Shown piece by piece: positions 28,398-34,998 of a stretch of 34,998 nt of DNA. This DNA comes from Candidatus Poseidoniaceae archaeon (lineage in GTDB: Archaea > Thermoplasmatota > Poseidoniia > Poseidoniales > Poseidoniaceae), in contig JAPKFC010000013.1 in the NCBI GenBank assembly GCA_028821785.1, positions 1-34,998 on the forward strand. The letters are read 5' to 3'. Under the pieces are notes generated by a model. That model was not told where the DNA came from. It ran no database searches and saw nothing but the letters and a program-made list of their open reading frames with translations. Each line of letters starts with the position of its first letter. Within the stretch, counting starts at the first letter, position 1. Both the position numbers and the translations under genes were made by a program.

Positions 28398-30794
28398 ATG
28401 GTGGCGCTACAAGTAGTAAATAGGAAAGGGGAACGTGAAGATGTACGTTTTGATGCAATAATGGAGAAGTTGACACATTTAGCCGAAGGGTTAGATCCGA
28501 TTTGGATAGATCCTGCTCATGTTGCAAAATTGACAATAGAAGGATTATACGATGGAGTTACCACTAGAGAACTTGATCAACTAGCAGCGGAGACTGCCGC
28601 TTCACTTGCTTCTCAACACCCAGACTACAGTCGTTTAGCAGCTAGGATTTGTGTTGATGACTTACACCGTTCAACCAAAACACAATTCTCGGAAGTCATC
28701 ACCGATCTAAGAGATTACATCGACCCAGAATCACGCAAGCACGCACCTCTGATATCCGAGGAAGTTTATGCTGTGATAATGGAAAATGCAGAGGTTTTAG
28801 ATAATCACATCAATTACGGACGCGACCATAACTATGATTATTTTGGATTCAAAACTTTAGAACGTTCATATTTACTGAAACTCAATGGCGAAGTTGCAGA
28901 AAGGCCTCAGCATATGTTGATGAGGGTCGCAGTGGGGATTCACCATGGCAATATAGAGAAGGCATTGAAGACTTATGATCTGATGTCAGAAGGATATTTC
29001 ACTCATGCAACTCCAACCCTATTCAATTCAGGAACACCAAAGCCCCAGATGTCATCGTGCTTCTTACTTACAATGCAAGATGATTCATTAGAAGGAATCT
29101 ATGATACTCTGAAACAATGTGCATTAATTTCTAAATCCGCTGGTGGAATTGGACTTTCAATTCACCATATCCGCTCACAAGGCGCATATATCAAAGGGAC
29201 AAATGGCACAAGCAATGGAATCGTTCCAATGCTTCGCGTATTCAATGACACAGCTCGATATGTTGACCAAGGCGGCGGTAAGCGGAAGGGTTCAATCGCA
29301 GTATATCTTGAGCCTTGGCACCCAGATATCTTGGCGTTCTTAGACCTAAAGAAGAATCACGGTAAGGAAGAAGTTCGAGCAAGAGATTTGTTCTATGCAA
29401 TGTGGGTTTCTGATCTATTTATGGAAAGAGTAGAGGCAAATGCAGATTGGTCTTTATTCTGTCCAAATGAATGTCCAGGTCTCCAAGATGCTTACGGTGC
29501 TGAATTCAAAAAGTTATACGAATCATATGAGGCTGAAGGAAGAGCGCGCAAAACAATTCCTGCGCGTACGGTTTGGGATAAAATTGTTGAATCACAAATT
29601 GAAACAGGTACTCCCTACATGTGTTACAAAGATGCAGCAAATGAAAAATCCAATCAAAAGAATCTAGGAACAATTAGGTCCTCAAATCTTTGTACAGAGA
29701 TTATGGAATACACTTCACAAGATGAAGTGGCTGTCTGTAACCTTGCTTCGATAGCACTTCCAAAGTATGTTGACATGGAAACTAAATCATTTAATCATAA
29801 ATTATTATATGATGTGACATATCATGCAACTGGGAATCTAAATCGAGTAATAGATGTTAATTTTTATCCGGTAATAGAAGCACAAAATTCCAATATGAGG
29901 CATAGACCGATTGGTCTAGGTGTTCAAGGGTTAGCAGATACATTTGCAATGCTTGGGCTGTGCTTTGAAAGTGAAGAGGCTAGAGCATTGAATAAGGAAA
30001 TATTTGAAACAATTTACTTTGCATCATGTACGGCTTCAAAGGATGCGGCGATGGCAGAAGGAGCTTACTCTACCTTCCAGGGTTCACCTGCTAGTGAAGG
30101 AAAACTTCAGTTTGATCTGTGGGGGATGAATGAGCACTCCGGTCGTTGGGATTGGGATACTCTGAAACAAGAAATAGTAGAGCATGGTATGCGTAATTCA
30201 CTACTTGTGGCGCCTATGCCAACGGCATCAACTAGCCAAATTCTTGCAAATAATGAGTGCTTTGAAGCATTTACGTCCAATCTTTATGTCCGCAGAACTT
30301 TATCTGGGGAATTTATTGTTTTGAACAAGCACTTAGTTCGTGACTTGATTGCAAGAGATTTGTGGTCTCTAGAAATGAAGGATGAAATCTTAAGACACAA
30401 AGGTAGTATTCAATTAATTTCTGGGATCCCTGATGATATCAAGGAGATGTACAAAACCACCTGGGAAATAAAGCAACGCTACGTCCTTGATATGTCAGCG
30501 GATAGGGGCGCATATGTCGATCAAAGCCAATCATTGAATATTCACATGGTCGATGCCAATCCTGCTAAAATAACTTCGATGCACTTCTACGGATGGAGAA
30601 AAGGTCTCAAAACAGGAATGTATTATCTTAGGACCAAGGCAGCAGCTGATGCGATTCAATTTACGGTTGAAGCCAAAGTAAAGGATGATCAAACAGTTGC
30701 AGGTCTAGCAGATCGGGCTGAGGAACTTAGCAGTTTAGAAGCGATTGCTTGTTCGCTTGATACTCCAGATGACTGCCTAAGTTGTGGTTCGTGA
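28398..30794 (+). CDS. nrdA: Ribonucleoside-diphosphate reductase class I large subunit (R1), eukaryote-like
   Basis: ATP cone; [83 protein letters not shown]-terminal CLSCGS. Confidence 0.97.
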
Positions 30795-30854
30795 ATAATC
30801 TCGCCCTTTGGCCTATTATCAAACATGGCTTAAACGCCATATTGATGTGATTTC

Positions 30855-31136
30855 ACCGTATTCTTTCAAATACCCCTTGCCACAGCCCCCGACATGGCAC
30901 AAGGTACTGTCAAATGGTTTAACTTTACGAAAGGATTTGGATTTATAGAAAGAGAAGGGGGTGACGACCTCTTCGTTCACGTCTCCGAAGTCACTGGAGA
31001 AATTACAGACGGAGATCTAGTTACTTTCGAAGTCGGCGAAGGTCCAAAAGGTCCTAACGCAATCGGCGTTTCAAAAGTTGTTGAAGACGAGTGAAATTTT
31101 CACTTTACTCTGAAACAATTTTTTGTTAACTTAACT
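30855..31136 (+). repeat. csp duplication block, copy 1 (pairs with 32232-32512)
   Basis: Shared block covers about 35-40 bp upstream, the whole csp ORF and about 42 bp downstream, ending TTAACTTAACT. Confidence 0.85.
30894..31094 (+). CDS. Cold-shock domain protein, copy 1
   Basis: [36 protein letters not shown]1 [10 protein letters not shown]2 LFVHVS; 66 aa. Confidence 0.96.
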
Positions 31137-31192
31137 GTTTACAAAACACAAGTTACCACTAACTTGTTAATTGATCGATACGAGGGGATTGC

Positions 31193-32005
31193 ATGGATGC
31201 AATAACAACTGGAATAACCGTTTCAATTATTGCGTTGATAGTTTCTATATTAGCAGGTTCTTTTCCACTATGGAAAAAAATCGCAGAACAGCAAAATCTT
31301 CTCAATTGGATGACTGGCCTTGCTGCCGGTATCTTATTGGCATCTGCATTATTAATTGCAATACCAGAAGGTTTTGAATTAGCATCTGATAGTAATTATT
31401 CTGGTGACTCCGTATTCCTAGGTGCAGCAATATTATGTGGATTCTTGTTTATGTTAATTCTAGAAGGCTTTGGCTTTGGTCACGATGTCCATGAAGAACA
31501 TCACAATCACTCGCACGACCATGATCATGACCATATTCATCATGTTACAGGTTCTAGCTTAGTATTTGGATTGAGTGTCCATGCATTAACCGATGGATTA
31601 GCCATTGGTGCCGGCATCTCTTCACAATCAACAATCCTTACATTGACTCTAACTATGGCTGTTATAGCCCACAAGATCCCAGCAGCGTTCTCATTAGGAG
31701 TATTTTCTCTGCATGAGAGGGGTGATAGAAAGGCAGCATTGAAAGACTTGACACTCTTTTCACTAGCCACGCCACTAACCATAATGCTTAGCGTATTATT
31801 CATGGGTGAATTAGAATCACACTTGCTTGCTATGGCAGTATTATTTGCAGCTGGAACGTTCCTTTATGTTGCCACAGTAGACGTCTTACCAGATGTACAC
31901 TCACCCGATACTGGAAAACTAGCATTAATTCAAGTGATTATAGGTGCAGCAATAATGTTCGCAATTCTCGTTGCATTAGATGCGAGTGGAATCATTGCTC
32001 ATTGA
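31193..32005 (+). CDS. ZIP family divalent metal transporter with His-rich loop
   Basis: Multiple TM helices; His loop HDVHEEHHNHSHDHDHDHIHH; HALTDGLAIGAGIS; HKIPAAFSLGVF. Confidence 0.92.
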   Translation: MDAITTGITVSIIALIVSILAGSFPLWKKIAEQQNLLNWMTGLAAGILLASALLIAIPEGFELASDSNYSGDSVFLGAAILCGFLFMLILEGFGFGHDVHEEHHNHSHDHDHDHIHHVTGSSLVFGLSVHALTDGLAIGAGISSQSTILTLTLTMAVIAHKIPAAFSLGVFSLHERGDRKAALKDLTLFSLATPLTIMLSVLFMGELESHLLAMAVLFAAGTFLYVATVDVLPDVHSPDTGKLALIQVIIGAAIMFAILVALDASGIIAH

Positions 32006-32013
32006 GGGTCAAA

Positions 32014-32231
32014 TTAACTTGAGCAAGATCGGATAGAGCATTTGGCTTTATTTTTAGTCTACTAAGTTCGTCGAGTAAACATTTTAGCTGCAAATCTATT
32101 TATTCAGGATATACATTTTCTAATAAGTGTAATAGTCCTCTAAACAACTAAAAACGCTGTTTTACCCAACATTCTCAATTGCTAACAGAACCATCCAATC
32201 GCTAAATACATCTTTTTTCTTTGAGAGTTCC
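32014..32231 (-). pseudogene. Decayed partial duplicate of the selO 3' end
   Basis: 32014 TTAACTTGAGCAAGATCGGATAGAGCAT aligns with 32507 TTAACTTGAACACGATAGCATTGAGCAT; similarity continues to ..CTCAATTGCTAAC..CCATCCAAT..AAATACAT.. Peptide trace [21 protein letters not shown] matches SelO MKLTNPKYVFRNWMAQLAIED. A -1 and a +2 indel relative to selO break the frame. Confidence 0.82.
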
Positions 32232-32512
32232 ATCGTATGCTTCAAATACCCCTTGCCGTAGCCCCCGATATGGCACAAGGTACTGTCAAATGGTTTAACT
32301 TTACGAAAGGATTTGGATTTATAGAAAGAGAAGGGGGTGACGACCTCTTCGTTCACGTCTCCGAAGTCACTGGAGAAATTACAGACGGAGATCTAGTTAC
32401 TTTCGAAGTCGGCGAAGGTCCAAAAGGTCCTAACGCAATCGGCGTTTCAAAAGTTGTTGAAGATGAGTGAAATTTTCACTTTACTCTAAAACATCTTTTT
32501 GTTAACTTAACT
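32232..32512 (+). repeat. csp duplication block, copy 2 (pairs with 30855-31136)
   Basis: Same block; one synonymous difference in the 201-bp ORF plus a few flank differences. Confidence 0.85.
32270..32470 (+). CDS. Cold-shock domain protein, copy 2 (protein identical to copy 1)
   Basis: 66-aa translation identical to 30894-31094; only GAC to GAT differs at the penultimate codon. ATG at 32270 preferred over the upstream in-frame start at 32237. Confidence 0.95.
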
Positions 32513-34030
32513 TGAACACGATAGCATTGAGCATCCAACTTTACTTTTTGCCCACTCGGGTCGTTTAGTAAACCATTTACTATGCATATCCATTTGTTCC
32601 GCATATGGATTTTTCAATAACTCTAATAATTCTTCACATAAAGAAAAATCACCTTTTTCAGCATCCTCAATTGCTAACTGGGCCATCCAATTACGAAATA
32701 CATATTTTGGATTTGTTAATTTCATTTTTATTCTATCTGGTGTGGCATCGACTCGATCCCACCATTTCAGCAACCATTCATTCCATTGCTGTGTTGGAAT
32801 TTCATCCTCTTCATAAAAAGCAAACTTTAGAGATTCAACATTAGGTGCCTCAATATCTGATAGAAGTCGGAAAAATATAGTCATATCAGTTTCAACCAGT
32901 TGTAATAGGGAATTCAATTCCCGAACTAATTCAACATCTTTCTCTTCAAATGTATCAAATCCAAGTTTCCCAGCCCACATGGAATTTTGTTGTTCTCCAA
33001 TGGCTTCAAAATATACATCCAAAATTTGGGATAACTGTTCAGGTTCATCGAAAAGTGGAGCAATTGACTCTAATAATCTGGCAACATTCCAACCAGCTAT
33101 ACGAGGCTGATTAGCAAATTTATAACGTCTATGTGACAAATCAGTAGTGTTTGGAGTCCAGTTTGGATCGTAGTCTTCAATCCATCCATATGGACCATAG
33201 TCAATAGTTAATCCATGTATGGACATATTATCTGTATTCATGACCCCATGTACAAAACCAACTCTCATCCAATGCGAAACCATAGTCGCAGTTGATTTTG
33301 CAATGTCTGCTAGCCATGCTAGTAATTGTTGATCGTTTGAGTATTGATGGCCTGGGAAGTGGTTTCTTATCGTATGTTCAACCAATTCCCTAAGTGTCTC
33401 TGTATCACCAATCGCGGTATGGATTTGGAAACTTCCAAAGCGAATGAAACTCGGAGAAACTCGGGATATAATTGCACCTTGCTCGAATGCTCGGTTTCCA
33501 TCATATAGGATATCTCTCATTACCTCTTCTCCAGTTGTGACCAATGATAATGCCCTAGTTGTAGGAACACCCAAATGATGCATTGCTTCACTACATAGAA
33601 ATTCTCTAATCGATGAACGTAGTACGGCTTTTCCATCCGCAGTACGTGAATAAGGAGTGAGTCCAGACCCTTTGAGTTGTAATTCAACAATTCCTACATC
33701 ACTTTCAACTTCACCCAAAGTAATCGCTCTTCCATCACCCAATTGATGAGCCCAAGTTCCAAATTGATGCCCTCCATAGCGTTGAGCATAAGGGTCCATG
33801 CCTGAACTAGGAGCACCTCCAGACAATATTTCTAAATCTCCTTTTGTAATCGATAGAGACTTGGCCATTTCTTCACTCCATAATTGTAGTGAGGGATTGG
33901 GTGACGGTGTTGGTAGTACTCTCGACCAACATGCCCCTTCTACTTGCCGCGCAGGACCTCCAACGACGGAATCTCCAGGAGTTTCATCAACGAAACGGGA
34001 GTACCAAGTCAAAGAAGATAGGTTGGACAC
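32507..34030 (-). CDS. selO: SelO/YdiU family pseudokinase (protein adenylyltransferase)
   Basis: RYGGHQFGTWAHQLGDGRAITLGEV; ELQLKGSGLTPYSRTADGKAVLRSSIREFLCSEAMHHLGVPTTRAL; VHGVMNTDNMSIHGLTIDYGPYGWIEDYDP; C-terminal CSS. Confidence 0.95.
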   Translation of the reverse strand: MSNLSSLTWYSRFVDETPGDSVVGGPARQVEGACWSRVLPTPSPNPSLQLWSEEMAKSLSITKGDLEILSGGAPSSGMDPYAQRYGGHQFGTWAHQLGDGRAITLGEVESDVGIVELQLKGSGLTPYSRTADGKAVLRSSIREFLCSEAMHHLGVPTTRALSLVTTGEEVMRDILYDGNRAFEQGAIISRVSPSFIRFGSFQIHTAIGDTETLRELVEHTIRNHFPGHQYSNDQQLLAWLADIAKSTATMVSHWMRVGFVHGVMNTDNMSIHGLTIDYGPYGWIEDYDPNWTPNTTDLSHRRYKFANQPRIAGWNVARLLESIAPLFDEPEQLSQILDVYFEAIGEQQNSMWAGKLGFDTFEEKDVELVRELNSLLQLVETDMTIFFRLLSDIEAPNVESLKFAFYEEDEIPTQQWNEWLLKWWDRVDATPDRIKMKLTNPKYVFRNWMAQLAIEDAEKGDFSLCEELLELLKNPYAEQMDMHSKWFTKRPEWAKSKVGCSMLSCSS

Positions 34031-34078: not shown

Positions 34079-34998
34079 TCAGCGTTGTTGCCAATCGCTT
34101 CCATTCCACCACTGTGTGGAATTGTCGCTCATAGTTCTCCAAGTGTGGCCTGCTTCGTCAGTCCATCGCTGAACTTCAGTTGCAGCAGCCATTACTGTAG
34201 GCTGTGGCTCATACTGTTGAGTTTGAGTAATTGGCTGAGGGTTATCATATTGCTTAGGTGCTAATACTAATTCATCACTACCCTTTTTCTTCATGAAAAC
34301 CATTACTGCAGCTAATGAAAGAATAATGACAACGGCTGCAATACCGATCATCATGTACATTTGACGTTGTTCTGCAGCAAGTTTCGCAGCCTTTGCTTCT
34401 GCTGCAGCTTGTGCGTTATCTCCAACACCATCGCCATCAGTATCCATGGTTTCATTAGGATCATTAGGGAATGCATCAGCATTGTTACCAACACCGTCAG
34501 CATCAGAATCCATCGTTTCAGTAGCATCATTAGGGAATACATCGCTATTATCTCCAGTACCATCTGAATCAGTATCTACTGTTTCAGTAGCATCATTAGG
34601 GAATGCGTCAGCATTGTCGCCTACTGTATCATTATCAGAATCCATAGTTTCTGTAGCATCATTAGGGAATGCATCAGCATTATCACCTACTCCGTCAAGG
34701 TCGGTATCCATCGATTCATTCGAATTATATGGGAATTGATCTTCGGTATCCGGGACAGTATCTCCATCATCATCTGTATCTGCATTATCTCCAATTCCAT
34801 CGCCATCGAAATCAGAAGTTTCTGCAGAGTCCAATGGGAACGCATCATTATCATCAGAGACACCATCTGCATCATCATCTGTATCTGCATTATCTCCAAT
34901 TCCATCGCCATCAAAATCTGAAGTTTCACTTGCATCATCTGGAAATGCATCATCCCCATCCAATGTTCCATCACCATCAGAATCAATGTCTTGAATTG
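34079..34998 (-). CDS. TSP type-3 (Ca-binding) repeat protein with TM anchor and Trp-rich C-terminal tail; N-terminus lies outside the window
   Basis: Repeats such as DTDGDGVGDNADAFPNDATETMDSD; TM IGIAAVVIILSLAAVMVFMKKK; tail WTDEAGHTWRTMSDNSTQWWNGSDWQQR; frame open to the window edge. Confidence 0.88.
   Translation of the reverse strand, partial: IQDIDSDGDGTLDGDDAFPDDASETSDFDGDGIGDNADTDDDADGVSDDNDAFPLDSAETSDFDGDGIGDNADTDDDGDTVPDTEDQFPYNSNESMDTDLDGVGDNADAFPNDATETMDSDNDTVGDNADAFPNDATETVDTDSDGTGDNSDVFPNDATETMDSDADGVGNNADAFPNDPNETMDTDGDGVGDNAQAAAEAKAAKLAAEQRQMYMMIGIAAVVIILSLAAVMVFMKKKGSDELVLAPKQYDNPQPITQTQQYEPQPTVMAAATEVQRWTDEAGHTWRTMSDNSTQWWNGSDWQQR
34461..34724. repeat. 66-bp tandem repeat within the TSP3 gene (4 units)
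   Basis: TCATTAGGGA starts at 34461, 34527, 34593 and 34659, exactly 66 bp (22 codons) apart. Confidence 0.85.
34768..34912. repeat. 105-bp-period repeat within the TSP3 gene (2 copies)
   Basis: CATCATCTGTATCTGCATTATCTCCAATTCCATCGCCATC begins at 34768 and 34873. Confidence 0.75.

Follow-up and report, generated by a model that had tools for sequence, protein, structure and literature searches.

One tandem duplication of a unit carrying a cold-shock gene (csp), a metal transporter gene (ZIP) and the end of selO very probably underlies the locus described here. The initial csp-ZIP-psi-selO-csp-ZIP-selO array would then have been remodeled by loss of the second ZIP copy, by gene conversion and, in one relative (G024), by collapse of the repeat. 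The locus lies in a 34,998-nt stretch of DNA, hereafter the window, from a 1.8-Mb MAG (G000) of the Poseidoniales (Marine Group II archaea). Every sequence used came from a MAG, and the relatives that we compared, where named, are also Poseidoniales (Marine Group II).

csp and the selO 3′ End Form a Tandem Repeat

Between nrdA (28,398 to 30,794, plus strand) and a gene for a thrombospondin type 3 repeat membrane protein (TSP3; 34,079 to 34,963, minus strand), two flanks that close relatives have in common, the window reads csp-ZIP-psi-selO-csp-selO. The two csp genes (30,894 to 31,094 and 32,270 to 32,470, both on the plus strand) differ by one synonymous change and encode identical 66-residue cold-shock domain proteins (PF00313, E value of 1e-20 for copy 1). 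They sit within a direct repeat of 272 nt (30,865 to 31,136 and 32,241 to 32,512) with 97% identity and a spacing of 1,376 bp, as expected from the original prediction that the csp block recurs. The same prediction held that the DNA to the left of the second block resembles the 3′ end of selO. This proved correct, since the stretch from 32,008 to 32,233 (minus strand) aligns to the end of selO (32,501 to 32,725) with ~72% identity and a score of 181, while the maximum reached in 300 shuffles was 45. This decayed copy, which we call psi-selO, forms the right end of unit 1. Intact selO itself (32,507 to 34,030, minus strand) encodes a protein adenylyltransferase SelO of 507 residues (PF02696, E value of 8e-111). 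The csp and selO-tail homologies, predicted to meet near 32,232, abut at 32,230 to 32,241. The two copies stand head to tail and keep the same internal order, and they meet at a single junction, TTCCAT (32,228 to 32,233, plus strand), where psi-selO is joined to the 5′ flank of csp2. No second copy of the region was found elsewhere in the window genome.

A short inverted repeat lies 3′ of the csp stop codon in all the close relatives (31,090 to 31,136 in the window; L050, L051, and L053). Its sequence differs between the window (GTGAAATTTTCAC), G025 (CGCTAGCGATAGCG), and G033 (CGCTATTCATAGCG), and it may fold as a hairpin at the 3′ end of the csp RNA. Scans for promoters and terminators of the bacterial type gave nothing above chance.

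The Duplication Is Common to Three Species and Has a Single Origin

Two other species display the same arrangement, with the order csp-decayed ZIP-psi-selO-csp-ZIP remnant-selO in G007 and csp-ZIP remnants-psi-selO-csp-ZIP remnants-selO in G047. The three psi-selO copies (window, G007, and G047) cluster in a single clade (support 100/100), and the three species have in common both the TTCCAT junction and the csp2 5′ flank. There was thus one duplication, which took place before G047 split off, in agreement with the earlier claim that csp and the selO 3′ end were duplicated in tandem. Since all the records are MAGs, one might suspect an assembly artifact in a single MAG, but we are nearly certain that this is not the case because three species-level MAGs, which have each acquired mutations of their own, agree in both arrangement and junction.

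A tree of 20 kb of flanking sequence gave the topology (outgroups, (G047, (G007, (G024, window)))), with support of 99.8/98 and 100/100. G024, which has the order nrdA-csp-ZIP remnant-selO with a single csp, is nested within the duplicated clade in this tree. Its single copy is therefore derived and the repeat was lost. The G024 csp has a csp1-type 5′ flank together with a 3′ spacer like the second spacer of G007, which is the product expected of recombination between two csp copies, and G024 would thus best be read as a csp × csp collapse. When nrdA (2.4 kb) or selO was used alone, the four close species were not resolved. The selO gene tree pairs the window with G047 (95/98), contrary to the 20-kb flank tree, a conflict that may point to recombination at selO. 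The selO gene of G007 (L034, 6,001 to 7,570) has a low-similarity internal stretch and extra length relative to that of the window, with 523 aligned columns for 507 residues.

No duplication was detected in the outgroups G025 and G033. G025 has the order nrdA-csp-intact ZIP-TSP3 with no selO at the locus, while in G033 one contig ends within nrdA-csp-ZIP and another starts with selO-TSP3. A third genome, G026, has only csp between the flanks, and selO was not found in either G025 or G026.

The breakpoints offer a hint as to mechanism. TTTCAT is present within selO at 32,720 to 32,725 and upstream of csp in the outgroups G025 and G026, and the window has TTTCAC (30,851 to 30,856, plus strand) upstream of csp1, at the left-hand breakpoint of the duplicated unit. 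This suits a short-homology mechanism, although a 6-bp match is short enough that it could be due to chance. As for the orphan selO tail, its proposed decay is supported, as is the duplication, by the junction common to three species and the single clade of the tails. Identity between the psi-selO copies of the window and G007 is 77%, compared to 93.6% for the 20-kb flank of the same pair, which fits free drift.

ZIP Was Probably Part of the Duplicated Unit

The ZIP gene of the window (31,193 to 32,005, plus strand), which would be the retained ZIP of unit 1, is intact and encodes a 270-residue ZIP-family metal transporter that matches Pfam Zip (PF02535) with an E value of 4e-36 and 125 bits, well above the curated cut-off of 35. 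It displays 80% amino acid identity to the G025 ZIP adjoining nrdA-csp, with a dN of 0.11 and a dS of 1.37 (near saturation), and the protein is conserved relative to G025. At this locus, ZIP is intact in the window, reduced to wreckage in G007 and G047, and present as a remnant in G024. G007 has another ZIP relative elsewhere, with 53% identity. After csp2, G007 retains ~95 bp from the start of the ZIP segment, and the ZIP remnant of the G024 spacer is also found in this unit 2 of G007. In G047, the second spacer contains ~100 bp from the 5′ side of ZIP and, farther along, ~120 bp that are collinear with its 3′ part. The latter match has a score of 70, which none of 300 shuffles reached (maximum of 59 with the whole ZIP segment and 48 with the 3′ part). 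Since the 5′ and 3′ parts are in order, a whole ZIP once stood in the second spacer of G047. Together, the ZIP beside nrdA-csp in the outgroups and the ZIP remnants after csp2 indicate that the duplicated unit was csp-ZIP-selO′.

The original prediction was different, namely that csp-selO′ was duplicated without ZIP and that a ~877-bp ZIP segment then entered unit 1 at a TTAACT junction. This scenario can draw on the TTAACT copies that border the ZIP segment on either side and mark the csp2/selO joint, and on G024, whose order is nrdA-csp-selO without a ZIP gene. It is contradicted by the outgroups, which already have nrdA-csp-ZIP, and by the ZIP remnants present in G024 and in the second units of G007 and G047, and we regard it as very improbable. 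A relative with nrdA-csp-selO but no ZIP had been sought as support for it, which G024 is only superficially, since it keeps a ZIP remnant and its position among the duplicated species makes it derived. We also rejected the insertion of ZIP as a mobile or foreign segment because there is no ancestral empty site: the outgroups carry ZIP, and the ZIP-less site of G024 holds the remnant. The proposed synteny check for an unduplicated csp-ZIP order succeeded in part. While nrdA-csp-ZIP is present in G025 and G033, no genome was found to have csp-ZIP-selO intact and unduplicated on a single contig, and the G033 contigs break exactly in this interval. One of these (G033:C122, L052) begins one base inside TTAACTTGA at the selO stop codon, and its neighbor ends in the middle of ZIP, at codon 135; the breaks may reflect a repeat or population variants.

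The TTAACT at the csp2/selO Joint Resembles a Deletion Scar

There are seven plus-strand copies of TTAACT in 3.9 kb, compared to ~2 expected, including copies within csp and at the selO end. Nearly all of this excess comes from the duplication of csp and the selO tail, and a motif that occurs within csp and as the end of selO argues little for an insertion footprint. Moreover, since TTAACT ends the csp 3′ flank (31,095 to 31,136 for csp1, plus strand) as GTTAACTTAACT and spans the selO stop codon (32,507 to 32,509), it is expected at the edges of anything between csp and selO. The motif is therefore where it was reported to be, at the ZIP edges and the csp2/selO junction, but it is better read as the trace of a deletion than as that of an insertion.

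The sister G024 is informative in this respect. Its spacer is bounded by two 9-bp AACTTAACT repeats, 123 bp apart, and recombining these repeats reproduces the csp2|selO joint of the window letter for letter, G024 having both repeats and the intervening DNA while the window joint keeps one. On this comparison, the simplest reading of the joint would be a deletion between AACTTAACT repeats in the window lineage, and we propose that TTAACTTAACT (32,502 to 32,512, plus strand) is the scar of the deletion of ZIP copy 2. This illustrates a more general caution, that short repeats on either side of a segment, together with a ZIP-less relative, can give a deletion the look of an insertion.

The csp Copies Appear to Be Homogenized by Gene Conversion

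The csp coding sequences are 99.5, 99.5, and 100% identical within genomes, while identity between the three duplicated species is 94.4 to 96%. The same is true of the DNA 3′ of csp, dead ZIP included, which is 98% identical between the units of each of G007 and G047, compared to 83% between the two species. Since dead ZIP DNA is likewise homogenized, selection on the csp protein cannot explain the likeness of the copies and was ruled out as its sole cause. Paralogs are thus closer than orthologs even in DNA that is not under selection, and the positions of the copies are kept by descent. The contrast between csp (97%) and the selO tail (72%), which were duplicated together, would be best accounted for by gene conversion of the internal tract. 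Near identity of the csp copies within genomes could also come from recent separate re-copying in each species. However, this explanation, which we find scarcely plausible, is refuted by the csp2 5′ flank and psi-selO junction that the three species have inherited in common. The 5′ flanks of csp1 and csp2 also keep copy-specific differences across species, only the internal tract being homogenized.

If gene conversion is the homogenizing process, it bears on the double ZIP as well, since conversion copying ZIP from unit 1 to unit 2 could in principle mimic it. A corresponding scenario would have csp-selO′ duplicated, ZIP entering unit 1, and conversion then carrying it over to unit 2. Both the duplication and the insertion would precede the split from G025 and G033, and G025 would later have lost the rest. 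Conversion between the units is clearly active and the ZIP flanks are homologous between units, which makes such an insert copyable, but extra losses are required in G025 and G026. Constrained trees preferred an origin of psi-selO inside the window clade over one before the split of G033, with a borderline difference (delta lnL of 6.2, AU p of 0.051), and the divergence of psi-selO from selO is only modestly above that among psi-selO copies. We therefore consider this scenario improbable and favor the duplication of a unit that already contained ZIP.

Proposed History of the Locus

We propose that the ancestral locus was nrdA > csp > ZIP > < selO < TSP3-repeat protein, the intact csp-ZIP-selO ancestor being a reconstruction. 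Before the window species, G007, G024, and G047 diverged, their common ancestor would have undergone a single tandem duplication of a ~1.38-kb unit, probably via recombination or template switching at the short TTTCAT match. This unit would have begun a little upstream of csp, taken in ZIP, and extended into selO, of which it covered the last ~220 bp. In the resulting csp-ZIP-psi-selO-csp-ZIP-selO array, the cut-off selO tail would have been free to decay. The second ZIP presumably decayed and was then lost, its last piece in the window probably going by deletion between AACTTAACT repeats to leave the exact csp2-TTAACT-selO joint, while ZIP copy 1 would have stayed intact in the window and decayed in G007 and G047. 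The csp copies and the adjacent 3′ DNA, where both copies retain it, would have been repeatedly homogenized by gene conversion, and the G024 array was probably collapsed to one copy by csp × csp recombination.

Each of these processes has known counterparts. Like other tandem segmental duplications at short homology with partial pseudogenization, this one has a head-to-tail unit, a truncated gene at the joint, and a short match at the breakpoints. It differs in that the unit spans three genes, one of which was lost differently in each species, but nothing is categorically different. The window joint equals a deletion between the 9-bp repeats of its sister, as in deletions between short direct repeats by slippage or single-strand annealing, although here the deletion is deduced from comparison rather than observed. 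Concerted evolution by gene conversion is known in prokaryotes, for instance for tuf and mtrA, and the seven archaeal genes in one survey all come from methanogens, with csp or other cold-shock genes not being mentioned in its main text (PMC6053082). The present case is alike in that paralogs within a genome are closer than orthologs between species and differs from those of the survey in having adjacent and very short copies and in coming from uncultured Poseidoniales. Searches of open-access literature returned nothing on this locus. Tandem duplication, short-repeat deletion, and concerted evolution being already known, the locus is a further clean small example, a compact and well-resolved case in an uncultured archaeal order where one tandem duplication probably led to decay, microhomology deletion, conversion, and collapse within a few species.

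Loss of the ZIP transporter, whose function is predicted from its sequence, varies by species and may bear on metal use. A more speculative idea, which we think unlikely, is that these archaea keep the two short (~280 bp) csp copies as an actively recombining repeat that raises dose, with the intervening segment and its metal transporter being switched on or off between species via conversion and collapse.

In distant members of the genus (L054 in G018, L055 in G058, and L056 in G029), csp and selO are again convergent near-neighbors but do not adjoin nrdA, with a phosphomannomutase-like gene close to them in L054 and L055.
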